64,000 nt of DNA, taken from positions 40,754,420-40,818,419 of the forward strand of contig CM073321.1 in assembly GCA_037043015.1 (NCBI GenBank), in the 5' to 3' direction. Shown piece after piece: positions 2,244-20,684 of the stretch (position 1 is its first letter; each line of letters opens with the position of its first letter). Both the position numbers and the translations under genes were made by a program. The stretch is from Bryum argenteum (lineage: Eukaryota; Streptophyta; Bryopsida; Bryales; Bryaceae). Below the pieces are notes generated by a model that saw only the letters and a list, made by a program, of their open reading frames with translations, was not told the DNA's origin and did no database searches.

Positions 2244-4764
2244 ATATATCTAGCGATACTATTTTATGTCGACTGACATACTTCACACCTCTACATTCAC
2301 ATTCAAATTGTACTCACTAACGAAAACTATTATCTTCATTACATTCCTCTACGACATCTTCCCAAATGGATGGTGGTAGTGGAGGGTCGTAGTTCTTTGC
2401 TCTGTCACGGAACTCTTCCATGCCTTGGTCGATTCGGTGTACGTGGTGTTGTCACGACTGAATCACTTTCAAATCTTTGCAGAGCGTTGGATCTTTAGTA
2501 TGTAGTCGTCACCTTTGTTGTTCGATACACAACTAGTATACCACACCTTCAGGCACATTCCACAGCTTTGTAGTGATGGTCGAAGCACCAACTGCGGTAC
2601 TCTTCCTTCCCAGCCTCATTCTGCCGAACACAAGTCGAACACGAATTAGACCAGTTGTGAGCGTTCTTTAATCTGAACGGAAACTTTAACATCAGACAGC
2701 AGGACGTCTACAACACATTCCATTTTTTAACATTCCTACCTTTGTCCACTTCTTCGTTGCATAGTCTGCACCGCATTGACAACAGAGACCAACTGCGAGA
2801 CGCGGGTGCTACTGACAGGAAATCGAAAAGCTGGTATTCCCACAGACGAAACAATTGTAGGTCGGACCACTGAGAGTGACCGAAGTCATACTAAAGAATC
2901 CCAGCGTTCTTGCAGCAATGACATCGGAAAATGAACATTCCATTGCCACTCTATATACTCATGTAATATGGTCTCTCAACTTACTACTCCTTGCTCAAAC
3001 TATATCTATTTGTCAGAAGAAGATCATGATCCCCCACGAAAAATTCTTCAATTTTCAAGTGCGCTAGGTCTACAACGTTGTGCGCCGGCTCCACCAACAT
3101 GTGCTAGGTCCACCGCGTTGTTCGCCGGCCCCTCCAACAGTCCCAGCCGTGGCCACCATGGGATTTGCCGGGGCAAGCTATGGTCCGCCGATGCAACAGA
3201 TGGTGAGCCGGCGCCGGTGGGTGTCCCATTTAGGTTCTTCCCGCACTTTGCCGGCCCACGATCACTGGCCGCGGGTGCCGGGGCTGGTTGTAAGGGACAT
3301 TTGGACGGTGCCGGCGGTAGATGCGTGGCCCCTTTGATGGCCACTGCCGGGACTTTGCGGGAGTTCCAGGTTCTCAGACGGCCCTAAATCGGGAGTTGGC
3401 AAGGTACTTTGTGCCACTCCTGCGCCGTTACCTCGCGCCATCACCCCGCGCCGCGCGGTCCGCCCTCACTTCGCGTCACGCATCCGCGCCTCAGAATCCG
3501 GCGCATCAACACGCCGTGACTCAACACGTTGTCTCTTAACAGCCTATGCATCTAACACGATTGTGTGACATTGGCATCCATGTATGCGTCTTGGTTATTG
3601 CCCTGTTTGGCTCTGCACACAGAGTGTATTGCAAGAATCACACCGCAGGATGGAGGAGTCACGGGTTGGGATCTCATACGTGGCTTGAGGTAATGTGGCC
3701 TTGATCAATTTTCTTTAATCACTCTGGCAGCGGTTTGTTCTTTGCTACTCAGTTCTAGTGTTGCTCACTATATTCAGATTAAGTTCATTTTGTGTTGGGC
3801 TGATTCTTGTGCACCTCTTGTATTTCAAAAGACAACTCATAACCTCTTCTAATATTGCAGGTGTTCTCTGATAGCCTAGGGAGTGATGGTAAGGGATTAT
3901 CCATCCGAGCTTTTCATTGTCCTTGTGCTGTGCATCGAGGTTTTTGTAACGTGGATACTTACAGAAATGCGGATATTCATTATGATTGGTTACTACAGAT
4001 GAGAACTCTCCGGATACAGGATTCCGACATTAGATCACAAAGGTCCAGGACTATATGTCCTGCAGTTATTCTTAAAATAATGTTCGTTAAATCCTTACAC
4101 GTCTTCCACTTCATCACCTGGGAATGGATGTGCTCAATGGAATTGATTGGGATAGCGAGCGAGATAGACTCTTCGGTGAGCACTCCTGATACTGTAAATT
4201 TGGTTCATGTCATTGGAAAGGCTTTGTTATCATGTTAGAGATGATTGACATGAGCCTATAACCTTCAGTACTCTTTTTCTAGTTGTGCTCATTCGCTTAT
4301 TTTGAATGTACAGAAATGAGACATTTGTAGCTTTGAAACTGGGAAACTTTGGCCAAAGGTTTATGTAATCACATTGCTTGATCGAACAAGCAATCACAAA
4401 GCCTTGAGGACCGTCCGGCAAATATGCATAGGGGAGCAGATGATGTGGCCTGGCGCAAGCTAAAGTAACAAGATTGTAAAGTCTCTAATTTGTATTCAAT
4501 AATTCCAGCACATTCAAAGGCAACTCCCATCTCAAACGTGAGAACACCATATTCATTATTTTGAAGGTTAATAATCCTCTCAAAATGAAATTGAGAGGTT
4601 TTAGAATGATGTTTTGTTGTACACAAATAACTTAGAAAGTTATGAATCTTAAAGTTTCCATTCAAATTATAGTATAATATGGGGGAAAGTTTGTGCACCG
4701 TGGCGTTTCTAAGCGGGACTTCCAATTGATTAATATAAAGACCGGAGTAATTTTGAAATGGACA
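2242..4764. other. stretch without a recognisable gene; GC-rich island at 3050-3540
   Basis: Bases 3050-3540 are strongly GC-rich with many GCCGG/CCGGC words and an imperfect direct repeat (gctaggtc-ac-cgttg...gccggc) near 3062 and 3103. Open frames there exist on both strands and look compositional. A frame at 3855-4238 follows an acceptor-like tattgcag but has no motif I recognise. Confidence 0.35.
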
Positions 4765-4870
4765 CCAAGTCATGAGCTCAGTGGTTGGATGAGAAGGAGT
4801 CTCTTTATAACGTAGGTGGTCCGAGTTCGATTCCGGTCGGACTCGTTTGAGCAGCTAAAATGTACACATG
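4765..4870 (+). repeat. tRNA-derived SINE-like element, copy 1
   Basis: A pol III A-box-like sequence (TGAGCTCAGTGG, 4773-4784) is followed 50 bp later by a B-box-like sequence (GAGTTCGATTCC, 4823-4834) and the tail TCGGACTCGTTTGAGCA (4837-4853). The same tail and B-box arrangement recurs near 53.2 kb. Spacing and boxes are those of a tRNA-derived SINE head; the body and 3' end are not defined. Confidence 0.55.
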
Positions 4871-5392
4871 GCTTGGTACTGCTAAGTGAGCTTCAGCGGG
4901 CAGGAAAATATTTGCTACCAACCAACCACGTACCCTTAATTGTGACATGTATGACACACACAAACATCAGTGGTGCTAACCACTACTACCTTTTATAACA
5001 AATTAAATACATGTTATCATTTTTTTCACATAAATCAATCGACAAAAGTACTAATTGGAAAGAACAAATCAATACTATAATATAGTATAGAAATATATTT
5101 TCATAAATGCGTACAATGTATTTTTGATTTCAAATGAAACCCAATACCACAAACAAAGTGTTGCTCGAAGTGAGCTAAGTGACTTGAAAATATTCCATAT
5201 TCCATTGATACTACCAACATCCTAAACCACACATCCTTGTAGATCATTTGGTCTAACATATCTTCTATATTTCTAAATGCCTATAATCTTTTGAGTTTGA
5301 AACAAAAGATTATTATTTCTAAGTCGGAAGACAAAGCCATGACTATGTAGTTGTTACAATACACAAATACAATTGCAATACATATAAGACCT
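4871..5392. other. AT-rich intergenic sequence
   Basis: No coding signal seen. It is the 3' flank of the minus-strand gene that ends at 5393. Confidence 0.4.
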
Positions 5393-8234
5393 TCAAGCAT
5401 TTGAAAATTCAACTATAGTATCGTGAATGACTTTAATTTGATCCACCGGAATTTTTAAAGTGCACTCGGTTGTATCCTTCTTGACCTTTGACTTCCATGA
5501 AGTCATCAATAAAGCTGTATTCTCCCACAAAGGAGGTTGAGTATTGTCAACCTTCCAACGCAATCCTTTGACCGAATCCCATCCATTGTAGGTCTCTTGC
5601 ACATCTCGATCCCTTGATGTAGGCCGAAAGAATTGAATAAGGATGCAATTTGGCTGCTCGGGGTTTATGTTCGGATCTGACAACGCTCGAGCAATCCACA
5701 CCGGTCGTGAGTCACCATCTGCAGGCCGAATAGCAAGAAAGTATCCTTCATAAACATCACGAGCTACATGAAAAGATGGTTGAGGGCGATCTCGGATCTC
5801 TCCAACATATGCCTCATCTTCCCCAAACTCCTCACGAAGTTCGCCATCTTCAGCAAATTGGTCCTCCAAAGTCGCATCTATCCTGGACAATGGCCAAAAT
5901 CCGTCCCGAAGAACATTTGATGGTTCAATGGGAACCTCTAGTGCTGCCTTCACAGCGCGCCAATAGAACACAAGATGTTCATAGCGTCTTCTATACTCTC
6001 CAGTTCTATCTTCATCAGACATTGCCTCCCAGTACTTGATAAATCCAGAAATGCCCTTCACAATGTCCTCCACACCCCTCATTGCACGATGCGTCGTAGG
6101 AGTTGGATCACCACGTGGCCACAAAGAACGACCTTCCGAGTCTTCTCTCCACAACTTAATTCCGTTTGTATCATTTGGCAACCAATCTTCTGCTGTGCAC
6201 GAAGCCTTGTACTTCATTACAGGACAACCTGTAGAATCCAAAAAGAACTTGAATTGTTGTGCCTTCGTATGACCAACAAGTGCTTCCCCTCCATCCCTGA
6301 TAAACCCATCGATAAATCCTTTAAAATCCGGCACCTCTTCAACAAGGTGGGGGATGGCTGGAATAAATTCCACGTCCATGAAAGATTTCATGAGTAACGG
6401 AATAGTGGGGAAATTGTCTTTCCTCAACAGCATGCTCCACCTTCCAAACATTGCATCGATGTCATCATGGGTATGCCCAACCAACATGAAATTCACAAAT
6501 ACCTCGCGGAAGATCTTCTTTGCGACAAGGAGAGACCAAAAACTGAATACATATCTATTCTTGTTGTCCCCTGCTGCATTGTCCATCTGAACATTGAGAA
6601 TTGGCGGAAGAGAAATCCCTCGAAGTGGAACAGCTGGTGCTGGACGGAGTGACGATACGCAAGTCTCCGCACCTTGGAGAACAGCATCAAAGATAGGTGC
6701 CGACCTCGACCGAAGAAAAAGCTCCCTCGAAGAATACTTTGGTGGCAGCTCTATATCTCGGAGGAGCTTAGCAAAAGAGCCTACCGTGTAATTTGAATCG
6801 TGTGTGAAAATATCTAGACCGTAATGTGCGTAGCGTACATCTCCGTGGCCATGAGCGATCATTCCTGTGACGGATACTGGTAGCTTCACGAGACCATCGA
6901 GCTCCTTACTCTTGTGAGAAAAGACAGGGGAAGCAGTCTTCGCATGATCCATTTTGTCATGCATAATGGTCAAACACACATGCGGGTAGGTTTTCGACCT
7001 ATACCTGATGGCATAATATAACTCCCGATGAGCACGGGCTGCAGCCAAGTGTACCTCGAGCTTCTTTGCCCAAAGTAGTGCTTGTTGCGACCCAGAAATA
7101 GAGCGACGACGGAGTGTGTGCAACCGATCACATTTGGAGCACCGAGCAAAGTTATCCCCGGGTTTCTTCGCATCAAATTCAGGAAAGTGTAACTTCTGAA
7201 TTCTACTCAGAGAAGATGGTGAGACCATCTTCAAACCAAAGCCTTCGTTTGCGGCGTTGATTTCCGGGATGGTACTCTTCCATTTCCATGTAGCGGGAAG
7301 AATCATGGATACAACCTTCTCTCCAGATTTTAGTGTCCTCGTTCGGTGCGGCATGTGATCGGCAGAGTTCTCCAGGATGCAACGCAGGGTTGCAGTTGCC
7401 TGCGACGTGTGCTTGCGCGGTTTAAGCAAAGACGTATTTCCATGGGGATGCGCCATGACGCCATCGGCCACGTACGTTTGAAACCGATGAAAGGTCGCCT
7501 CGGACACTCCAGCAAATATGTCTCCACGCAGGCAAGCAAACATTGATTCCCTCAACCGTGACTACCCTCTTCCCGCCAGCATTTCGATGAACCTGCCTGT
7601 GAACGTCAAGCTTCATGTGAAACCTGAATTGGTAGGTTGTACCACTATACATCCGCTCTCGGAAACATCGGATCTTTTTCCTCGGGAAGGGTTGAACGCA
7701 GTTCCTGGTGCAGCAAACTTTGCTGGAGACAGAATTGATAGACTCCTGAGTTAATAAGCCTTTGGACTTGACGGATGTTTCAGGACGCGGGTTCCTAGAT
7801 GTATTGTTGTAACTCCGGCTACACGATGACTGAGGTCTCGCAAGACGTGCAACACGAGAGTCATGATCGTGTCGTATCTCATGGTCTCTGACACTAGCCC
7901 CATTATAGAAGACTTTATCGATCGGCCACGCCCTGACAGAATATCTCCACTCATCTGGCACCATTGTGGAATCAAGGGTTCTCGAGATTTGAACTGCGAC
8001 TCGGGAGTGCCCAAGTGGACCATTGCTTCCGAGGATGAGATCGTAACTGATGCTGTGACAAAGGCCCTCCGCTACAGGGCGACCCTCGTCACCGTAAAGG
8101 GTAACGAACTTTGTAGCCCAAAGACGCCGAGGGATACCTTCACACATTGGAACGTCTTTTGGAACTTCGGGTTGCTCCACAACCTCCTCATCAGAGGAAA
8201 AATCACCAAGCAATTGAACATCTTGATCAGCCAT
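5393..8234 (-). pseudogene. DUF7869-type transposase-like protein, one frameshift
   Basis: Reading leftwards, the likely start is the ATG at 8234 (MADQDVQLLGDFSSDEE), about 947 codons in all. The N-terminal part (to about 7510) has a Cys pair (VCCTRNCVQPFP). The C-terminal 720-codon frame has a CSKC pair (residues 139-142), HDKMDHAKT (199-207), NVQMDNAAGDNKNR (321-334) and LVGHTHDDIDAMF (358-370). The last three resemble DUF7869 proteins, and their spaced acidic residues suggest an RNase-H-fold DDE/D transposase core (inference). Near 7505-7535 the reading must change frame: the upper frame reads VEGINVCLPAWRHI and the lower frame continues FAGVSEATFHRF, consistent with a one-base indel. This is a recent lesion or a sequencing error. 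Its promoter side carries a palindrome cluster. Confidence 0.65.
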
Positions 8235-8292
8235 GGTAGAGTCTGCAAATTGATCACGAACGGGACTTGAGGAACAGAAGAATATGTGGCGG

Positions 8293-9004
8293 TTCAACTC
8301 GACTCGAGTTGAATACAATAATGACAGAAATCGAATAGAATTATTTACACGTAGACAAGATGTTGGAATAAATTCTCTGCCAGCTAAGACGTCTATGAAT
8401 TCAACTCGATTCGAGTTGAATACCCACAGATAATTGAAGCGAATCTACTTCATGAAAACGCATATCTCAAAATATGTGCTAATTCTGATTTAACTCGGAT
8501 CGAGTCAAATCATCCTGTTATCCTGTTACGTAAATAATAATATCACGTATCTGAGCCCGATATCGAAACCACAACATTCGACAAGACTACAGTATACCAC
8601 CTGAATAGTTTGGTGATAACCATTTCAACTCGAGTCGAGTTGAATGTGAATATCCTTTAATACAGCATATCGGATTCTATGAAATTCATTTAGGCATATT
8701 GATTGTATCTCCTATCCACATTTAACTCGATTCGAGTTTAATCCAATTTTGCTGTTGTAATCTGTCTGATATCCACACCGTGATTCAACCCGACCCGAGT
8801 TGAATATCCGTACCGTAAAGGGAAGAACCCCCCATGAAATCGGATAATTTCCATTTCAACTCGACTCGAGTTGAATATCACCACCTATAAGACTAAAATC
8901 CTAATTACGTAATCAGGACTGAATTACAATTTAACTCGACTCGAGTTGAAATTGGACAGACCTATATACACCGGCACAATTATTTCAACTCGAGTCGAGT
9001 TAAA
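8293..9004. repeat. palindrome cluster A (9 copies of CAACTCGA-N-TCGAGTTG)
   Basis: About 21-bp dyads start near 8293, 8400, 8489, 8624, 8721, 8784, 8855, 8930 and 8984. Arms are TTYAACTCGA and TCGAGTTRAA around a single variable centre base (C, T or G here). Copies at 8489 and 8784 are degenerate. Spacing is irregular (54-135 bp) and the DNA between them is not repeated, so this is not a tandem satellite. The first copy is 59 bp upstream of the start codon of the minus-strand gene, so the cluster lies over its promoter. Confidence 0.95.
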
Positions 9005-10100
9005 TGATTTAAATATGGAGCCCTGTGATGAACACATTCACCCGGAAATACCGGCGGAATTCCCGGAACTCGTAATCAGCTCGAAATCAAAATTCAGTAA
9101 CTGCTGAAACACTGAGGAATTCCGAAGAACGCTCACCTACGAATTGCAGATTTTGCGAGGAATACTAAGGCTCGCAACTGAAAAAAGCACGCACAACAAT
9201 CAGCAATTCGTATGCGGAAGACAAACAATACAGCACGAGCAACTCCGATAACCTGAAACACAATCAAAGTATAAGAGGATGCGCCTCTTCTACAATACTA
9301 GAACCTCAAAATGGGAAACTACTTTAAACTCCGTCAGCACAAACTCAATACAATCTAAACTGACACGCAACTTTGAACAAGGACAACGGAACGAAATCAA
9401 GGTAAGCGCACCTTCAAAGCACGGACGAGAGTGAGAGAAATCGAAATGAAACATGAGGGACTGCGTTAGCACCCCAACCTAACCTCAACGGTTGAATCGG
9501 TCGAGTATCCTCGACTCCCGATATCGTGCAAAAAGCCGACCTCTTTTTGTCGCAACCTGCATAATGTCTTGATTGGGCTTCGAAATAGGAATCTACTTTT
9601 TAATTCTGAATTTTGAAAATATTTGGCGGCAAAGATGTTTCGGCGGGAAACTGATTTTGGAGGGAAACCCATTCGTAAGTATGCAATTTTAATTTTTAAC
9701 AAAGAAATGTGTTTTCATGTTTTCTCCATAAAATTAAACAGCAATACACATGTATGAGTTGTGGAAAAAAATACAAATTCGTACACGTAAATTTATTGAA
9801 TAAGATATAATATTTACAAAATTAGAGTAACTAGAGTAATTGAGAACATTCCATTAACAATACTTTACCTAGTAACTCAAAATCAATGGAATCATATATA
9901 TGGTACACTACTAATAAAAAATACCAAAAAAAAACATAAAATACTAACATAGAATAAAATCACTACAAATAAATGGATCTATGAATACATTTAAATATAC
10001 ATCAATATATACATAATATGTTAAATACATACTATGATAAATACATAATATTTTAATTCATGTATATACGAGTACAAATGTATATGAATAGATATATAAG
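9005..10100. other. stretch without a recognisable gene
   Basis: No palindromes and no recognisable coding sequence. Composition becomes AT-rich after 9700. Confidence 0.4.
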
Positions 10101-10520
10101 TACGTATATATACATAAATACGGATATAGATGTTAAATACATAATATTTCAACTCAATGATGAATGATTATAAGATAAATTTGACTACGTATTGAGCATT
10201 TATTGTACTATCTTAATATAGAACAATGAAAGCGCGATTATATGACCATACGAGTTAAAATTGGTATACATGGATATATACCCGAGTACAAATGAATATT
10301 AACTTAGATAAATAAGTACGTATATGTACATAAATACGGGTATAGATGTTAAATACATAATATTTCAACTCAGTCAGCTAATATGTTATAAGATAAATTT
10401 GAATATATGTTGAGCATTTATTGTGCTATCTTAATTTAGAGAAGGAAAGCCCAATTATATGCGCATACAAGTTCAAATATGTATATACATGAATATATAA
10501 ATAAATTAACATACGTATAT
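10101..10520. repeat. imperfect tandem duplication, about 216 bp, AT-rich
   Basis: The stretch beginning tacgtatatatacataaata at 10101 recurs beginning tacgtatatgtacataaata at 10317. Both copies run through gttaaatacataatattt and a shared gagcatttattgt segment. It is a diverged two-copy duplication in AT-rich DNA. Confidence 0.75.
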
Positions 10521-11327
10521 AGAGATATATATAAGGTTTGTAGTGAGTAATCTACTTCTCAAACATAAAACTGTTGGACGATCTTTTGGTATGTATGATG
10601 TATGGCTATGGTATGAATGATGTACGTCGATGATATTTGTGATGTATGGCCATGATATGTGTGGTGCATGTCTATAGTATACATGATGTTTGTTAAAGAT
10701 ATCTTCTATCTATATACTCTCATAGTCTTATTTATATTGTCCAATTCGTTCTCTCAAACCTTCCTATTTGATTATATAGCTATCCACTAATATTTTTAAT
10801 TTGTAGCTGTTTATATTATTAATAAAATTTTATGATTTGACAACATCTTAGAAATTAATAGAGAGGGGATAATTTTTCAGCTTCCTTTTCGAGTGAATGA
10901 TGACCTTATTGGATTGGAGAACGATAACTAATTGGAAAGTTGGATATGACATAATCAAAGTTGAATTAGTGCTTGGGTATTGCCGATTGAATAATGTATT
11001 TTTTTTCCAAGTTTGTATCTTCTTTCAATATAAAACTACACACAAATTTTTAGTAATTAAAACATGGTATTTTCGCAGACACGTTTTATCTAATACTACA
11101 CTTACTACTGTAAAGTGTTGTGGAGTCTAAAATTTTACGATTACAATACATATAGTGTTGGAATAGGCATTTATTGAACTTATCTTCTTTTCAAAAAAAT
11201 TACTTAGAAAAAAAATTTAGATGTAAATGAAAAATATAATGGAATTTAGTGTAGTGTAGAGACGGGCAGACATGAAAAGGGCAAGAAATTGCTGCCCGAA
11301 GCAATATACGGTGGGGGCAGCGTATAA
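10521..11327. other. AT-rich intergenic sequence
   Basis: No coding signal. Short gatgtatgg/gatgtacg words repeat at 10595-10690. Confidence 0.35.
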
Positions 11328-11435
11328 GGCGGCCCGGGTAGGCACGGGCAGTGCAAAAGGCGGCCCGGGTAGGCACGGGCAGTGCAAAAGGCGGCCCGGG
11401 TAGGCACGGGCAGTGCAAAAGGTGGCCCGGGCAAT
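11328..11435. repeat. 31-bp GC-rich tandem repeat, three copies plus a partial
   Basis: The unit ggcggcccgggtaggcacgg followed by gcagtgcaaaa starts at 11328, 11359 and 11390, then a diverged partial. The copies are almost identical. Open frames here (Pro/Gly/Ala-rich on either strand) are products of the repeat. Confidence 0.95.
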
Positions 11436-12828
11436 ATTGCGGGCAGCCCGCTCGAAAGTTGGCCGGGAACGGAGAGTGGGGGGGCTAGGGTTTGGCCCCC
11501 ATTGTTTTCCTCGTCTTCCATGTTTTCTGTGCTCCGCTTGCTGGATTTGGCCGTCGTCCTCGCATTCTTGCGAGAGCTCGTGTTTTCTTGCATTCTCGCT
11601 ATCGCGTAGTTACGCCTCGGCGAGTCGCTAGCTCGTAGCCTCGAAAGTAGCTATCTCCTGGCCTCGAAGGTCGTGTTCGTTCATGTTTATATAGTCTCTT
11701 TTGTATCTACTCTTTTTTTTGCTTCTTTTCTTGCTTCTTGCTCGCCCCGGACGCTTTTCGCTTCTCTTAGCTCTGCGCCTCGACCTGTTAGCTTAGAGTC
11801 GCGCCGAGATAAGCGCGGCATCAAGTGCGTGGTGGTTTGTTTGACGGCGCTTGCGTGGGCTGGTTTGAGGGCGCTTTTGCGGCTTTCGCAGCCCGATCAT
11901 CGAAGTTCCGGACTTGAACCTCTCTGTAAGTTAACCGACACTTTTTGTTATGCAATTTCATTTACGTGGTGGTGCAAGTTTTAGGTCATTTCTATCGTTT
12001 TCCGGACTTTGAGAGTTGAATTTTACTAGCTTTAGGGAGCCTTGAAATTCGAGTGATTACATTGGAAAAGATGAGGAGGAATTTTAAGTGTAGATGTACG
12101 ATTTAGGAAAGCGAGAGAAAACTCGCGCCTCTCGGAGTGGTTCATAAAATTTCGAACCCCGATTTTTAAGAGCAGATCGGAATGTGAATGTTGAAACAAA
12201 AGAGGTGGTACATTTTTGAGTTGTTTAGGGTTGATTCGAGGAAGTTAATGAATTTGAATTGGTGAGAGTTGTCAATGAGGTTTTTGCCGGTGATTTTAGA
12301 TCATTAGAATCTTGGTGTTCACTTCCGAGCATCGGTTTGTGAATCAATTGCAATTGAATTGGGCTACTATGTGATTCGTTCATACTTGAATCTGCGTTAG
12401 TGTTGAAAATTTCACTTTGAATCGAGTCATAGTAAATTTTTTGTTCTAATCATTCATTGTTTACAATTATTCATTGTTTGCTTTGAGAGTAGGACGCAAT
12501 GAGGCTTGTCCGATTAATTTCGGTATCCGAGTGTCTAGTAGGGAAGCGAGGGAAAGAATGGGTGAGTATTCAATACTTAACTCTCATTTGAATGTGACTA
12601 AGTTTCCGCGGAATAGTTTGGCATTGGATATATGTCTTTGGCGTGTTTTTCAAAATACTAGTTTTGTACATACTTAGCGTAGAGAACGATTGATCGATTA
12701 AACCGTAGCCGAGTTGTGTTGATGTTCGAAAGATTCAATAAAGATAAGCAGTTCGAATGGATCGGAGTTGAATTGGAAACACAGTTTTTTACCTTTGCAT
12801 GCCACCGACATCATAGACTACAGTCAGA
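11436..12828. other. stretch without a recognisable gene; GC-rich to about 11.95 kb
   Basis: A GC-rich stretch to about 11950 is followed by ordinary sequence. It could contain the 5' end of the plus-strand gene that starts further right, but I see no exon I can support. Confidence 0.3.
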
Positions 12829-13837
12829 TTCAACTCGGCCGAGTTGAATTCTCCATCCATTCGTTTTTGGCGAGTTGAACAGTCCATCCAATTTGTTTCT
12901 GAGAGTTAAAACGCGAGTTCACAGACAAGGGGAAATTCAACTCGACCCGTGTTAAATCTCTGCCTTAGAATCCCTTTAAAAGTGAATGATAGCTTAGGCT
13001 TAAACGATTCAACTCGATTCGAGTTGAATTCAGACAAGACGAGATATAAGGGTACTGATCTATATCCCCCACATGCGCTACTTACTTACCGCAGCTCGAA
13101 CAATTTAACTCGACTCGAGTTAAATCAAAAAATTACTGTTAAAGTTTTAGTAAAATATTCAACTCGACACGAGTTGAATTAGTTCTGCGCATGTGCTATA
13201 AAGACAATTATTCAACTCGAGTCGAGTTGAATCGCTATTATACGAGATTTATAACTGGTGTACATATTCAACTCGACTCGAGTTGAAATGTTGTAGCGCA
13301 TAATAAAGCAGAAAGATTATCCAACTGGTATCGATTTAAAATAGGGAGAGACTTATAAAAATATCATGCAGTTTAATGAGATCTATAATATTCAACTCGA
13401 GTCGAGTTGAATTATTCGATGATAGAAATTACTCAACATAACATAAGTATTCATTTGGCTGAAAACTGAGATGACAAAATCAACTAGTGTAATGCAAAAT
13501 TCTCTGACTAAAATTGATTAAATACATGGGTTCATACGAACGCCTTGATTTGAGTTAAAATGATGAACGTTCAGTCTCAGCAGTAATTCAACTCGAGTCG
13601 AGTTGAAAGTAACTAGGTTCTGTATTATGAAACCACAAAACGCTGTGATGGGTACTTTCAACTCGAATCGAGTTGAATCCCACTTCCTTGCTAATGATAA
13701 TCGTTGACGAACAGAGAGAGACGAGATGCAAGTTCAACTCGACTCGAGTTGAATAACACTTACCTAGAAAGTTTCTACTGATAATCGTAGATTAACAGAG
13801 ACAATTAGAATGCAATTTCAACTCGACTCGAGTTGAA
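12829..13837. repeat. palindrome cluster B (12 copies)
   Basis: Dyads start near 12829, 12936, 13008, 13104, 13158, 13211, 13267, 13391, 13587, 13657, 13733 and 13817. The first lacks the centre base (CAACTCGGCCGAGTTG) and is an exact even palindrome. At 13104 both arms carry T instead of C at the third base (TTTAACTCGA / TCGAGTTAAA), so symmetry is kept despite the change. Spacing is 53-196 bp. The last copy ends about 40 bp before coding sequence of the ParB-like gene begins. I do not see this motif outside 8.3-17.7 kb of the window. Confidence 0.95.
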
Positions 13838-15320
13838 TACTAATCCTTGAAATTCGAATACATGAATACTAAGTTTGCTTCTCTTTCTCATCGGGAGAAA
13901 ATCCCAAAGAGAGGCTCTCAGCCTTCTTCGATCTCTATGTTCCTGAAAATGATAGCGAGGTCGCAGATCCCGAAATATTTGGGGACATGTGGGTGCACAG
14001 TAATCCTGCGGATGTCGAATGGTGGAGTATGCTCCTCACACCGCACACGGACAAGCTGGCTGTAGTCACCAAGTACACGGGTGGGGAGTGCAACCTTCCT
14101 GTGAATTTGGAAGAGAACATCATCGACGTTGTAGTCCACAACACGAATTGGATATGCGTGACGTGCATCGTGGACGACCCCAACGACGACACGGCTGTGG
14201 ACCAAGACGACAGGTTCACTTACATGATCGACACAACGAAGATGGATTTCGACATCTTGGCACATGTCGACAGTATAAAAAATACCCCTTACGAACCTTT
14301 GGCAAAGAATGTCGAGCAACACATTCGTGAGTTTCGATTCACAAAAGATGGCGGTGAACAGCAGCCACCAAGTATTCTCGCGCCTCGTCTTCGATCACTC
14401 GTCACTGCCATGGTGAACTTCAAGGCAAAGCTGCAACGCAAGAAGATGCAAATGACGCCTCTTCGTCTGACGCAGGAAGTAAGCATGCAAAGCGGCAGCC
14501 ACGAGTCTATCCTATACCAGACTCCTGAGGCGACGGGATCGAAGAGGCGCAAGGCAAATCCGTCCACAGCTCAGCGGAGGCCGACACAGAAGAAGCTCAA
14601 TCAGTCACGACGAAGAAGTCGACCCTGGCCGACCCCACTGAGATTGAACAGGCGAGCTTAGTGTCGGCTTTGACGGAGGTACCCATCGACAATGTAGACA
14701 AAGTTGTCGATTACAAGGAGTCGATGAATGTCTTCAAGAACTACTGGGGGCTTTGCCAGGACTCATACATCTTCGGCTCAGATGTGACTTTCGAGATTCC
14801 AATCGAGCGTCTCTTTACCCCCTCTGCGGACCTGAACATCCGAAACCTCGAGCAGGAGAAAGTCAAGCACACGAGGCATTTCCTAATTGAGATGTCCGAT
14901 AAGAGCAAGAAGAACACCCTCTGCGTCTACCCAAAGAATCAGCTTGTGAAACCCCGATCATGGGAGGACATAAAGGACGGGGAGTTCTACATGGTCAACG
15001 GACAGCATTGCATCGAGGCATCCAAGCAGTTGCAAAACATGCTTGATGTAGACCAAAGCATCAGGGATGCATTCAAGACATGGGACTGCTTCGTGGTATG
15101 GAACGAAGAAAAGCCCATCATTTGGAGAATCTCCGCGTTCTACAACAGGGTCAACCACTTCATGAATACAAATCCGACGTGGGCGACAAACATCATTGGG
15201 GCGCGGGAGCTGTGGATAAGCCTCGGTAGACCGGAGAATCCGAAGGAGGCTCTTGAGGTTGGCAGGGTCGTCACACAGAGGCCCGGCAAGGGCAAGAAGC
15301 CTGCAAAGGACAATTTCAAC

Positions 15321-15465
15321 GTATGTGTACCTCCATTCAACTCGATTCGAGTTGAATAATGTCCTACACTACTAACGATAATTTCTGAATTTCTATCCCG
15401 TTGTATCCTATTTCAACTCGATTCGAGTTAAATATCTAACTCAATACCGTACTCGGATGATACAG
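15321..15465 (+). other. intron 1 of the ParB-like gene, with two palindromes
   Basis: Donor gtatgtg at 15321 and acceptor tacag ending at 15465; splicing joins KDNFN to EFMEA in phase 0. Two palindromes (starts 15336 and 15412) make up about 30% of the 145-bp intron. Reading through the intron gives a stop within the first palindrome region. Confidence 0.8.
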
Positions 15466-15601
15466 GAGTTCATGGAAGCTGTCAGGACAAGATTTGCTCT
15501 CATCGACGTCAAGAACGCCCAGAGAGCAGTGACAACAAGCAAGGCGGCCAGAGAGAAGCTCACCATCGCAAATGAGCTAAAAATCATCACTGCTCCAGAT
15601 G

Positions 15602-15693
15602 ACTACAAGATAGAGTATGCTGAGTACTTCAGATGCTTCCTCGCCAACAAGGGGAAGTTCTTCAGATGCTTCCTCGCCAACAAGGGGAAGTTC
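15602..15693 (+). repeat. exact 33-bp tandem duplication in exon 2
   Basis: The 33-bp unit at 15628-15660 is repeated exactly at 15661-15693, duplicating FRCFLANKGKF. In addition the 26 bp just before it (15602-15627) recur exactly at 16019-16044. The coding frame is preserved. This is a recent local duplication or an assembly artefact. Confidence 0.95.
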
Positions 15694-16350
15694 CAGGTTC
15701 CGAAGGGCGAAACAAACTTCAGGGCCTACAACCTGGAGGATGATGTTCTAGGGGAATGGCACGAGAACTCTTGGAATGATCAGTCCGCTAAGCGAATCAA
15801 GGTCGGAATTATAGACTTCAGAAATCTCCCCGGAGCACATGAGGAATCAGCGTCATCGAGCTCGTTAGCAGGCTCCTACTTCTACAACGTCCTCCAAGTC
15901 CTGAAGTCTATCACGGACCCCGTGGTAACTGAAATCCCAGTTTGGGTTTGGATCTGCGGAAGTAAGGATGCTGAGGCGAAGATCAAGAATCACCTCGACA
16001 GTTGCGAGTTCGGAGCAAACTACAAGATAGAGTATGCTGAGTACGTTCCGGCTCCTTACGAGCGACTCGAGGACCAAAACTCGTCGAAGACAAGGGCCAA
16101 GGATCATGTCCAGATCCTTTTCTTGTTTCGAAAAAATCAGAAGTTGAGGATTTCAAATCTTCCCAAGTTCTTCGAGGCCCCCGACACTCCACAGTTCAAG
16201 ATCTGCGGGAGATACAACGAGCTCGAGTACCATATCTATAATACGGAATTGAGGATGGAGTTCTACCTGAAGCTGCTTGACATCTTCTGCAAGGAAGGGG
16301 ATGCGATCCTCAGTGTTTTTGGAGGCGGGAAGCTCTACTGTGCGGCCTGG

Positions 16351-16706
16351 GTAAGGATGTCCTCTATATTTCAACTCGATTCGAGTTGAATACTTTGCCA
16401 TGGCTCTGTTTGCCAGGGATCGTTTTACACTTACTTGCATTCTATTCAACTCAACTCGAGTTGAATGGAATACTAAGTATGATACGAAATCTTGTTCTTG
16501 CTTGAGTCATTATATTTAACTCGACTCGAGTTAAATTTGGTGTTTGATGGTAAATAGAGTGTATAGTTGGTATTCAACTCGACTCGAGTTGAATGCACAT
16601 AGATGAGTAGTCTTGTCATTCTCTCAAACGCCACCTACATTCCAGCTCGACTGGAGTTGAACTTTCATGTGATTGACGTTGCATCTCGTGATGTGTCTAC
16701 TTGCAG
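16351..16706 (+). other. intron 2 of the ParB-like gene, with five palindromes
   Basis: Donor gtaagg at 16351 and acceptor cttgcag ending at 16706; phase 0. Palindromes start near 16371, 16445, 16515, 16573 and 16640; the last is degenerate. That is five copies in 356 bp, the same density as in clusters A and B. Confidence 0.8.
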
Positions 16707-17687
16707 ATGTGTTCCCTGATGAATTACACGATCAGCTCCAGCGAAGAGCATGACGAAGTTGTCAGACTTTCCTTGGATGTCTTCAACTTGGATCATCGAG
16801 ATTTCGAAGAAGGGTACGCGATCGATGAGCCTTCCTTATCTAGAGAGAGACTGGAAGCACCGCCACCCCCGACGAAGTCAGAGAAGGGAAAGGGGAAGAA
16901 GAAGGTCAGGGGAGTAGAGTTACCACTTGACGTGCATGATCCAAGACCGATCGCAATCGGGTCAAGTGATGACGATGACGATCCTCTCCAGGATGTTGAG
17001 GCCTACGGTTCCCAACACCCGGTAATACCCCAGACTGGACGAGGCTCATCTTCTCATCTTCCTCATCCCCAGGAACAAGGCTACTCGGATACCTCTCTTC
17101 GGGCTTCCACGCCATCGCCACAGAAGAGGAAAAGGGAGTCACTATCCGTTGATACCCTTATGGAGAAGCTCGTCAAAATGCAGGAGGATGCGCAGACTCG
17201 ACATAGGATCGAAGTTGAAGCAATGCTTGCTCAAGAGCGCGAGGAACGCAAAGTCCAGAGACACGAGGATGAGCAACGATGGAAGTTTATGTTCACAGAG
17301 GCCATCGCGAGAATGCCTAATATGGTAGTCCAAGCAATCTCGCACCTGAATGCAAAGCCTCTCCTCTCCCTCGAACCAGGTCAGAGTGAACCTCTCCTCC
17401 TCACCCACGGGCCTACTCAGTCTTCCGACAGCGGTGCAGCTCGACATGCATCTCCCCGACGTTCCCTCCACGGCACGCCTCCTCAGTCGACTGCAGCTCC
17501 CTCACCTGCAGGCAACATCACGCAAGTTGTTTCTAGGGATCAAGGCCCATCAAGTCGCTCCACACCATCGGACCCAGTCGAGTCGGAACGGAAGGCCGTG
17601 GATGAGGAAGAGCAGATAAGAACACAGGATCAGACTCCCGATCCGAACATTACCGAATCAGGTTGAACTCCATGATCTAGTCTTTCA

Positions 17688-17708
17688 ATTAACTCGACTC
17701 GAGTTGAA
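17688..17708. repeat. single palindrome just after the ParB-like gene
   Basis: TTAACTCGA-C-TCGAGTTGAA lies 22 bp past the stop codon (17664-17666). It is the last copy in the window; none is seen in the FCP1-like gene that follows or in its introns. Confidence 0.95.
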
Positions 17709-17915
17709 TTTCTCCTTCGGTTAATGGAAGTTCGCCTGTTGAAGCCTTCGGCAGTTGTTGATAGACTAGTATATATATTCCCGTAGGGCAATTTTGTTAG
17801 ATTGGACTTGGTGTTCATCGTGTAAATACTTTCTGTATATGACGCTCAATTTTGAACTCAGAGTTTGGAATACAATCATCTTCTTACACATTTTCTCCCT
17901 CTGATATCTACGCAG

Positions 17916-19035
17916 GCTCTATTGATTTGCAAAGTGTTCCGAATGTTTGTGTGTCTCATGACGTCCCCCCTATGGAAGACACCAGTCCTATGAGTCCGTT
18001 TCACGGCGCAAGATGATCACAATGAAGGTCACATTCCTGATTCCATACTGCTCGAGGTTCACATTCCTCTTCCATCCTCGACCGCTGTACGAGATTCACA
18101 AACAGCTGAAACTCAATCAGATATGCCGGTAAGCTGCTTCTTCTCCAAAATTTATTCAATCCTTTCCTTATTGGTTCGGTGTAATCGCATTGTTTGGATT
18201 CGGGATTTCTTAGTGTTATAGAAAGGGTCAGTCTCGAAATGTGGCAGTGCAGTACTTAACTGTATACACATTTGTCTGCCCCCCTTCTGAACAGGGGATG
18301 AGTCATTCGCACAGTCCGGTAGTTGCAGCCGAGGAGGATATCCCTCGTTCTATTCCTTCAAGGGTGCCATGCAAGTGGCTCAATGTCATCCTGGACTTGA
18401 ACGGTATCCTCTGTGTCTGCAAGGAGAAGAGATTCATGCCAAAGGACCAAGTTTACAACATGGTCGCGAGTGCACATTCCTCTGTCCTACCCGCTCCGAT
18501 TGGTCCCAAGGCTGTTTTCGTTCGGCCCTTCTGCCATGATTTCCTTCGTGAGTTGAGTGAAGTTGCATACGTCTCCGTATGGAGTTCGATGGTTCATGCG
18601 ACCACGAAGTCCATATGTGACTACTTGTTCCGGGGTGTGCCATACCCGTGCCTTGTTTGGGCGAGAACTCTTGTGAGGTTGTCAAGGTTCGTGGACCGCG
18701 GAATAAGTTGTCCAACTTCAAGTTGAAGGGGACTAATAAGGATCTCTTCCTCAAACCACCGGATATGCTTTTTGGTGGTCTAAACTTAAAGTTTAATGAG
18801 CATGACACGATCATCATCGGCGATAGCCGTGAGAAGCACGTCGTGAATGAACCAGAGAATGTCGTCTTGCCCGGTCTCGTGGTCGAGCATGATGTATCCG
18901 GATGATTCTTGGTGGACGAGCTCCTCCCTTGGATTCGACGCGTCTACATCAAAGCCGCGGTCGGGGCTTGTTGTCTTTCCGTAGGGAAGACAACATTGGG
19001 CGTAGAATGCTCTCTCGAAGAGCTTGATACTTGAA
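17916..19035 (+). pseudogene. FCP1/NIF-type (HAD-fold) phosphatase-like gene, broken
   Basis: Exon 17916-18128 (acceptor cgcag, donor gtaagc) encodes SIDLQSVPNVCVSHDV and, after a one-base frame change near 18010, DHNEGHIPDSILLEV. Exon two starts at 18295 and carries WLNVILDLNGILC (HAD motif I; the second Asp is Asn, as in the DLNG variants common in plants), VFVRPFCHDFLREL, YVSVWSSM (motif II), then TNKDLFLKP and DTIIIGDSREKH (motif III/IV region). A one-base loss in the G run at about 18658 shifts the frame between PYPCLVW and GENSCEVV. A TGA at 18903-18905 precedes FLVDELLPWIRRV, a usual FCP1 C-terminal motif. Two frame changes and a stop indicate a pseudogene. Confidence 0.7.
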
Positions 19036-19351
19036 TACGAAGAGCTTATTAACGCCGTAGAGGCTTCTAGAAAGCTAGTGCTTGATTAGGCTAGTTATCC
19101 AAGATTGGCCTCACCAGACAAGATTCAAATTTGTCATGTATATTGTGTAGATTATAATAAATGATTCAATATTAATGTCTCCTCCTGGACTGATGTCATT
19201 TCAGAGCGGGCTTGTGTCCGACCCTTTATTTTATTGTAGTGTTTGATGATGCTAGTTCTCTCAGCATTGGTTTAATTAGCGAGTTGATTTGGTTATATCA
19301 TATTGCATATCATCCTTGTTGATGATTCCTCTAAAATGAATTCGTATCCAG

Positions 19352-20264
19352 GTGTCCAATTCCGTCTCGGTTTCGGACAATGATTTTGATTTCCGTTGCG
19401 CTGCTTCTGCTGATTCGATTTTGGACTACGGACAATACTCAATTTCGCAGAGTGGAATGGGCCACATAATGTACTCAGCAGCTACTGCACAATCAACTAT
19501 GGACTACTCGACAATGGCAATTGATGATGGTGTTGTGGATAGTCCTCCTTTTGGCGGTAAGCGACCACACTGTGCATGTTCTCCTTCCCCTCTGAAGACC
19601 CGTACCCTAATTGACGAATCAAGTCGAGGTGGCGCTCCGCAAAGAAAGCTTTACGATGATTCTGAGTTAGTTGATGATGCACTTCCCGTACAGGTATGAC
19701 ATACTTGAAGCAGTTCTTTTATGAGTTTTTCCTAGTTTTTAACTTCCATTGTAGTTTGATTTACTTACATTTCTCTATGTCTTTTCATGCACTTAGGCGA
19801 CAACTGCAGCAGTCGTGCCCATACCGGTCATTTTCGAGTCTCCGGCTCTTCGTTTATCACCTCATAAGGCATCGTCGCTGAAAATATCTCGTGGTGCGTC
19901 GACCCATTCTCTCTCTACGCCTTGTCCATTGAAGTCTTTGGAGCCAGCAACAGAACTTGGAGACTGCCGGACGGAACTAACGGGGCCACCTAATCCGTCT
20001 GTTGCCCATGCTGTTGATACCTCGCGTTCGCGTTTCCGTACTATGCGCCCGCCATTACACGAGGGTCACTGCCAGACTCAGCCACACGATGGATTTCAAT
20101 CCAGAGTTAGTTGTCCTCCTGTTTGCGATGCATTGGAGCAACGAATTTTGAAGCTTCAGCGACGTGAAAATTCAAGTTCGCGTTCGTCACCATACACAGG
20201 CTACAGTCGTGGACCAGAAGTGTGGAAGGCACTAGCTGAAATTCGAAGCCGTTCGCACTTGTGA
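19352..20264 (+). CDS. two-exon Ser/Pro-rich protein of unknown function
   Basis: Exon 19352-19693 follows an acceptor (gtatccag) and ends at a donor (cag-gtatga). Exon 19797-20264 follows acttag and ends with TGA. Both are phase 0 and join as DDALPVQ-ATTAAVVPIP. The product (about 269 residues visible) is Ser/Thr/Pro-rich with a basic C-terminus (EVWKALAEIRSRSHL) and a short charged helix (ALEQRILKLQRRENSS). It has no domain I recognise. It starts at a splice acceptor, so it may be the 3' part of the preceding phosphatase-like gene; no stop or frameshift is seen inside it. Confidence 0.45.
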
Positions 20265-20684
20265 TACGGCAACAGTCTTGATATGATTTAGAATACATTG
20301 ATCGGTATGGTTCTCCAGGGATAGCCCACATTCAACACCATACTGTATTGTACTATTGGTATAGAAATATCGTATTTACCATCGTACATTCGTATCATTC
20401 ATATGTAACTAGAGCTCACATTTTTATCTGGATGAGCATATTTCCTTTGACGCAGTCAATTCTTGTATACAATGTCTATAAATAAACATACATTCATGTA
20501 TATTCCAGTCTGGCATACAATTATTCATCCATCTATATCTACTTTATACCATTTTTTACAGACTATTTGTACTTTTATCATTACCTCAGGGCCTCAACAA
20601 TACTCTCATTCTTGAGGGATACTCTCAAAATAATGAATATGGTGTTTGAGTCGTAGCCATACAAGTACTATAACTATCAAACAA
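20265..20684. other. 3' flank between convergent genes
   Basis: AT-rich, with an aataaa polyadenylation-like word near 20480 for the plus-strand gene. Nothing else seen. Confidence 0.4.

Follow-up and report, generated by a model that had tools for sequence, protein, structure and literature searches.

What are short, isolated palindromes doing in a single 9.4-kb region of moss DNA? The window analyzed here is a 64-kb (64,000-nt) stretch of Bryum argenteum contig CM073321.1 (assembly GCA_037043015.1), in which a preliminary description reported 29 palindromes of 21 bp and took them for dispersed protein-binding sites. We found that all of the palindromes, together with both genes that flank them, lie inside one 16.1-kb DNA transposon, a point which that description had missed. 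In the region compared, the palindromes are conserved between copies of the transposon, and they differ in sequence between its sister families. On balance, they are probably bound by a homodimeric protein encoded by the transposon, most likely the product of its second gene (gene 2), which would keep the element expressed.

Searching the window for CAACTCGANTCGAGTTG with up to 3 mismatches returned 28 rows compared with 0.25 expected, one of them (16452) being a shifted match that overlaps another, and none of 100 shuffled sequences reached 28. The conserved stretch is wider than the 17-bp core first proposed, reaching TT...AA. Specifically, the 21-mer TTCAACTCGANTCGAGTTGAA (TTCAACTCGA-N-TCGAGTTGAA), allowing 4 mismatches, gave 28 non-overlapping sites (15 perfect) spanning 8293-17708, with no further site at this threshold in the rest of the window. 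A copy without the spacer, ATTCAACTCGGCCGAGTTGAAT, at 12828 brings the total to the 29 reported, and all four bases do occur at the center (A 2, C 15, G 5, and T 6 over the 28 sites).

The limits of the transposon are where homology to its copies A, B, and D begins and ends. Its ends are terminal inverted repeats (AACACCATATTCATTATTTTGA..., beginning AACACC), and the 4-bp target-site duplications (TGAG in the window, TACA in copy A, TTAA in copy B, and TAAC/TAAT in copy D) are exact in three of the four cases. These homologous copies sit on the same contig. The element carries three genes, namely a DUF7869 transposase, the fast-evolving gene 2, and a NIF-type phosphatase, and the palindromes are placed as follows (strand given where one applies).

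4539..4542, (+) strand, left target-site duplication TGAG
4543..20646, DUF7869-type DNA transposon, alpha family, 16.1 kb
8293..9004, palindrome cluster 1, 9 sites, just upstream of the transposase start
12828..12849, spacerless palindrome
12936..13837, palindrome cluster 2, 11 sites, upstream of gene 2
15336..15432, palindrome cluster 3, 2 sites, gene 2 intron 1
16370..16661, palindrome cluster 4, 5 sites, gene 2 intron 2
17688..17708, last palindrome, just past the gene 2 stop
20647..20650, (+) strand, right target-site duplication TGAG

None of the 28 window palindromes overlaps an exon (p = 5e-8, with sites treated as independent and exon limits set by us). Conservation was compared among six copies (the window copy and copies A, B, C, D, and E) over the nine sites upstream of the transposase. 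Palindromes were more alike than spacers in all 15 copy pairs, a contrast that is somewhat flattered because the aligner may anchor on the motifs (motif columns were taken from the window copy, and gaps were scored as differences). In the most diverged pairs, i.e., E and C each against the window copy, A, B, and D, palindromes shared 83-88% identity and spacers 36-48%. The corresponding values were 86% and 66% for E and C, 94% and 68% for the window copy and D, and 100% and 96% for the nearly identical A and B. The central base varied freely.

Across 222 context-distinct alpha sites, the arms mutate mostly independently. Changes in both arms numbered 25 at arm position 3 (15.9 expected), 5 at position 10 (1.5 expected), and 7 at the remaining positions (~5.5 expected), with the nine positions other than 3 together giving 12 compared with 7.0 expected. 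Such behavior is more in line with a pair of protein half-sites than with RNA pairing. The most frequent changes after those at position 3 fall at positions 8-10, which would be in keeping with methylation of the CpG in old copies.

A transposase search of the genome gave 67 matches (a lower bound), with relatives at 53-60% in addition to close copies (73-100%). On contig C5, a 59% relative, which we call beta, shares the gene order of the window element and carries 51 sites of TTTAGCTCGA-N-TCGAGCTAAA in equivalent places, and two regions with 53% relatives bear the gamma palindrome, TTATCCCCGG-N-CCGGGGATAA. In one gamma copy (L045), gene 2 reads as an open frame of 996 residues, preceded by 8 sites and with 3 more at the expected intron positions; the frame is open through sites 4101 and 5599, and their intronic status is judged from where matches to the C5 exons stop and resume. 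The palindromes of all three families are built as 10-1-10, i.e., 10-bp arms around one central base. The expectation that homologs of the flanking genes would have clusters beside them was borne out in all 20 further regions fetched upstream of the transposase from among the 67 matches (12 beta, 2 gamma, and 6 alpha).

Genome-wide, there are 947 exact copies of the alpha 17-mer core, 5,878 of the beta 21-mer (TTTAGCTCGA), and 693 of the gamma 21-mer (TTATCCCCGG), compared with none for the reversed-sequence controls of the three motifs. The reported confinement to 8.3-17.7 kb thus stands within the window but not for the genome. The palindromes have been amplified together with the elements. 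The 50 places listed of the 947 fall in eight stretches of contig C1, all eight of which contain DNA matching the element. A form halfway between alpha and beta, TTCAGCTCGA, has one exact copy in the genome, and two palindrome forms inferred from other sources have none.

Spacings are mostly 46, 55, 59, or 100 bp in beta and 43-47 bp in gamma, and the spacers are in part direct or inverted duplicates of one another. Tandem growth of this kind, unlike in beta, is not evident in the alpha window copy. In intron 1 of gene 2 of the C5 beta copy (L024/L023), sites follow one another at six successive 38-bp steps, and upstream of gene 2 in gamma copy L045 the steps are 61-63 bp plus one of 42 bp. 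Judged by eye, spacers between palindromes also recur as exact or near reverse complements (L028, L037, and L035), and inversion, in addition to tandem duplication, therefore seems to contribute to array growth.

Database proteins offer a second view of the sites. Gene 2 proteins often include a translated piece of intron beyond the exon end, and intron DNA can thus be read from their last residues. Among 81 gene 2 proteins, 19 places at read-through ends and one N-terminus could be read back into perfect palindromes of 10-1-10 build around a TCGA-N-TCGA core, although back-reading presupposes palindromy; shuffled protein ends gave a mean of 0.22 and a maximum of 2 in 100 rounds, counting only tails found by pattern. 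The script had sorted 9 matches as read-through and 13 as exon, and 10 of these 13 were moved to read-through as they lay past the exon end, which the pattern had missed, by position, tails, and the DNA itself. None of the other three (P0135, P0138, and P0166) resembles the family motifs. The types recovered were TTCAACTCGA, TTTAGCTCGA (or ATTAGCTCGA), TTCAGCTCGA (or ATCAGCTCGA), TTTTCCTCGA, and TTTAAGTCGA; variants with A instead of T as the outermost base (ATTAGCTCGA in P0142 and P0146; ATCAGCTCGA in P0161, P0191, and P0201) were typed by their inner bases for the tree described below. Among 120 transposase relatives (79,572 residues), six proteins had a match, of which one (P0067, near the N-terminus) was motif-like and five were coding and not motif-like. 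A CpG at arm positions 8-9 is common to all palindrome types, gamma included, and the consensus over the six types seen or inferred, with one fixed CpG per arm, is nTnnnnnCGR-N-YCGnnnnnAn.

The genes of the window copy are laid out as follows.

5393..8234, (−) strand, transposase gene, DUF7869 (PF25273, E = 1.2e-42), in frames 8234-7422 and 7555-5393
13873..15321, (+) strand, gene 2 exon 1, frame-broken in this copy, with a candidate start codon and a weak ParB-like GQH region near the 3′ end
15322-15465, predicted gene 2 intron 1
15466..16350, (+) strand, gene 2 exon 2, with ~0.5 kb missing relative to copy A
16351-16706, predicted gene 2 intron 2
16707..17666, (+) strand, gene 2 exon 3, with a low-complexity, acidic end
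18241..18726, (+) strand, gene 3, NIF/CTD-type phosphatase (PF03031, E = 1.5e-8), frame-broken in this copy

DUF7869 is the sole Pfam match of the transposase, which is frame-broken in the window copy, as its two frames overlap. The named relatives of the element's proteins all come from mosses (Ceratodon purpureus and Physcomitrium patens). They include a Ceratodon transposase of 947 residues (P0008, KC19_3G000300; 84%) and a gene 2 relative, KC19_3G000200, whose locus tag adjoins it. About 40 of the 47 close transposase copies (at least 73%) lie on contig C1 (44 Mb, 17% of the genome), by a hand count from the lower-bound list with neighboring fragments joined; this contig may be a sex chromosome or else repeat-rich. 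The phosphatase gene (PF03031) is present in the C5 beta copy too (L024:597-1328, E = 2e-14).

Gene 2 has diverged further than the transposase (25-37% compared with 54%). Exon 2 of a gene 2 relative models as a helical region followed by a degenerate methyltransferase (MTase) fold, a Rossmann fold of the N6-adenine type. The catalytic motif IV of beta-class N6-adenine methyltransferases, [DNS]PP[YFW], was found in none of the 65 rows with letters at that place in a 68-row alignment, and, judged by this motif, the product does not qualify as a typical active methyltransferase. Matches of the ParB-like region were all weak and below significance (PHROG 1033, E = 0.077 and 0.2; DUF6551, E = 0.06-0.076). 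An NCBIfam search of gene 2 gave no ParB-type match, and no Pfam match of any kind to gene 2 exceeded a curated cut-off.

Dispersed protein-binding sites, as originally suggested, fit these sequence patterns best: conserved islands in the region compared, mostly independent arms, exon avoidance, and symmetric differences between families at a fixed 10-1-10 build. That the binder is encoded by the element itself seems very likely, and gene 2 is its likely source. In this proposal, the gene 2 protein, with its weak ParB-like region and degenerate MTase fold, would bind the palindromes of its own family as a homodimer, each half-site of ~10 bp being set 1 bp from the other. The bound protein would then coat the control regions and introns of its family and keep the element expressed, most probably by opposing host silencing and possibly by autoregulation in addition. 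Anti-silencing as the purpose has, in our judgment, close to an even chance. Cross-talk between families would be avoided because protein and palindrome both differ between them. More speculatively, and as less likely than not, we envisage a self-recognition system, independent of VANC (see below) and widespread in mosses, in which a ParB-like/pseudo-adenine-methyltransferase protein reads private family palindromes as a zip code, de-silences its own family only, and perhaps senses cytosine methylation directly.

A tree of exon 2 (45 rows) did not cleanly sort the palindrome types: 4 changes are required for TTTAGCTCGA (no more in 217 of 500 shuffles), 2 for TTCAGCTCGA (no more in 24 of 500), and 5 for all five types together, where 4 is the minimum possible (no more than 5 in 17 of 200). 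Palindrome types differ even between the C5 copy and P0140, which are sisters with 100/100 support. Switching between motif types is therefore likely, and the tree does not establish strict co-divergence of gene 2 and palindrome.

Several other explanations compete with binding by a gene 2 homodimer. The palindromes might serve transposition as accessory sites to which either the transposase or a TNPA-like, end-assembling helper binds. Their presence with the transposase in all 20 regions fetched agrees with such a role, and CACTA/Spm elements, with their element-encoded, repeated, family-specific sites, provide a precedent. However, the palindromes nearest to the ends of the window copy are 3,750 bp (left) and 2,938 bp (right) away, and in three families the sites lie at gene starts and in gene 2 introns, which leaves this role unlikely. 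We likewise see only a small chance that the element's own repressor or activator uses them for simple autoregulation, with no anti-silencing role: clusters do sit at both divergent gene starts, and a palindrome suits a dimeric regulator, but 28 sites in the window and 51 in the C5 copy, with some in introns and past gene 2, are more than a promoter switch would require.

Exploitation of host transcription-factor sites is improbable; although promoter capture would agree with clusters upstream of genes, the palindrome sequence differs from family to family, the intermediate form is all but missing from the genome (one copy), and the 50 alpha places listed of the 947 fall in stretches with element homology. 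Equally improbable is a ParB-parS-like function, in which the palindromes would nucleate a spreading clamp by which element DNA is clustered or tethered. In its favor are the weak similarity of the GQH region to ParB, seen in two diverged families, and the resemblance of the palindromes to parS, but every match is below significance, there is no partition context, and parS sites, which are also palindromes, are far fewer in number than the sites here. Least probable by our estimate, and hardly to be expected, are RNA hairpins in transcripts. Perfect palindromes can fold, some are intronic, and two-arm changes are in some excess at positions 3 and 10; however, the arms are mostly independent at the nine positions other than 3, and the sequence itself is conserved, beyond pairing.

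To our knowledge, the VANDALs of Arabidopsis are the only transposons whose sequence-specific anti-silencing is known in detail. If the proposal is true, the moss element would add another example from a distant plant lineage, with apparently unrelated proteins, which would make private self-recognition a recurrent escape from silencing. Its dimer-type code would be readable straight from sequence, and the three families of one genome would supply naturally varied proteins with their target palindromes for studying how DNA specificity changes, as well as possible tools for locus-specific epigenome editing.

Among known systems, CACTA/Spm elements encode TNPA, a protein with many repeated subterminal sites in its own element. 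The moss element likewise has many repeated internal sites and a proposed element-encoded binder, but its sites are regulatory in place, its ends begin AACACC, and its duplication is 4 bp, unlike the CACTA ends and 3-bp duplication; because the sites are not subterminal, it is not a CACTA/TNPA system. ParB-parS and the ParB-methyltransferase proteins of phages and plasmids share with it the palindromes and, weakly, the order of a ParB-like region (GQH) followed by an adenine-type MTase fold. They differ in that the moss system is a eukaryotic transposon with tens of sites, a lost catalytic motif, and only putative cytidine triphosphate (CTP) binding. DNA transposons of fungi carry TET/JBP dioxygenases (PMC12730594) and thus also pair a transposon with a protein related to DNA modification; the enzyme is another one, and the available part of that report mentions no family-specific site arrays.

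The closest parallel is with VANDAL21 and VANDAL6, Mutator-like elements of Arabidopsis that have short motifs, specific to each family and densely placed in noncoding DNA (introns and regions upstream of genes), and encode VANC, a protein with changed target specificity (PMC5735166, PMC10398659); VANC target arrays are described as growing by tandem repetition (PMC5735166). The moss motifs of alpha, beta, and gamma are likewise family-specific and dense in noncoding regions, introns included, and the beta arrays, with their recurrent spacings, duplicated and inverted spacers, and 38-bp steps in C5 intron 1, resemble VANC targets in tandem growth. In comparison, VANC motifs have one orientation, unlike the 21-bp dimer-type palindrome; the VANDAL transposase is Mutator-like, unlike DUF7869 with its 4-bp duplication; and the moss candidate has an MTase-like fold. 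Because transposase, target duplication, and motif build all differ, the moss element is not a VANDAL. By analogy, it would work in a VANC-like manner from apparently unrelated parts, with a fair chance of being an independent invention.

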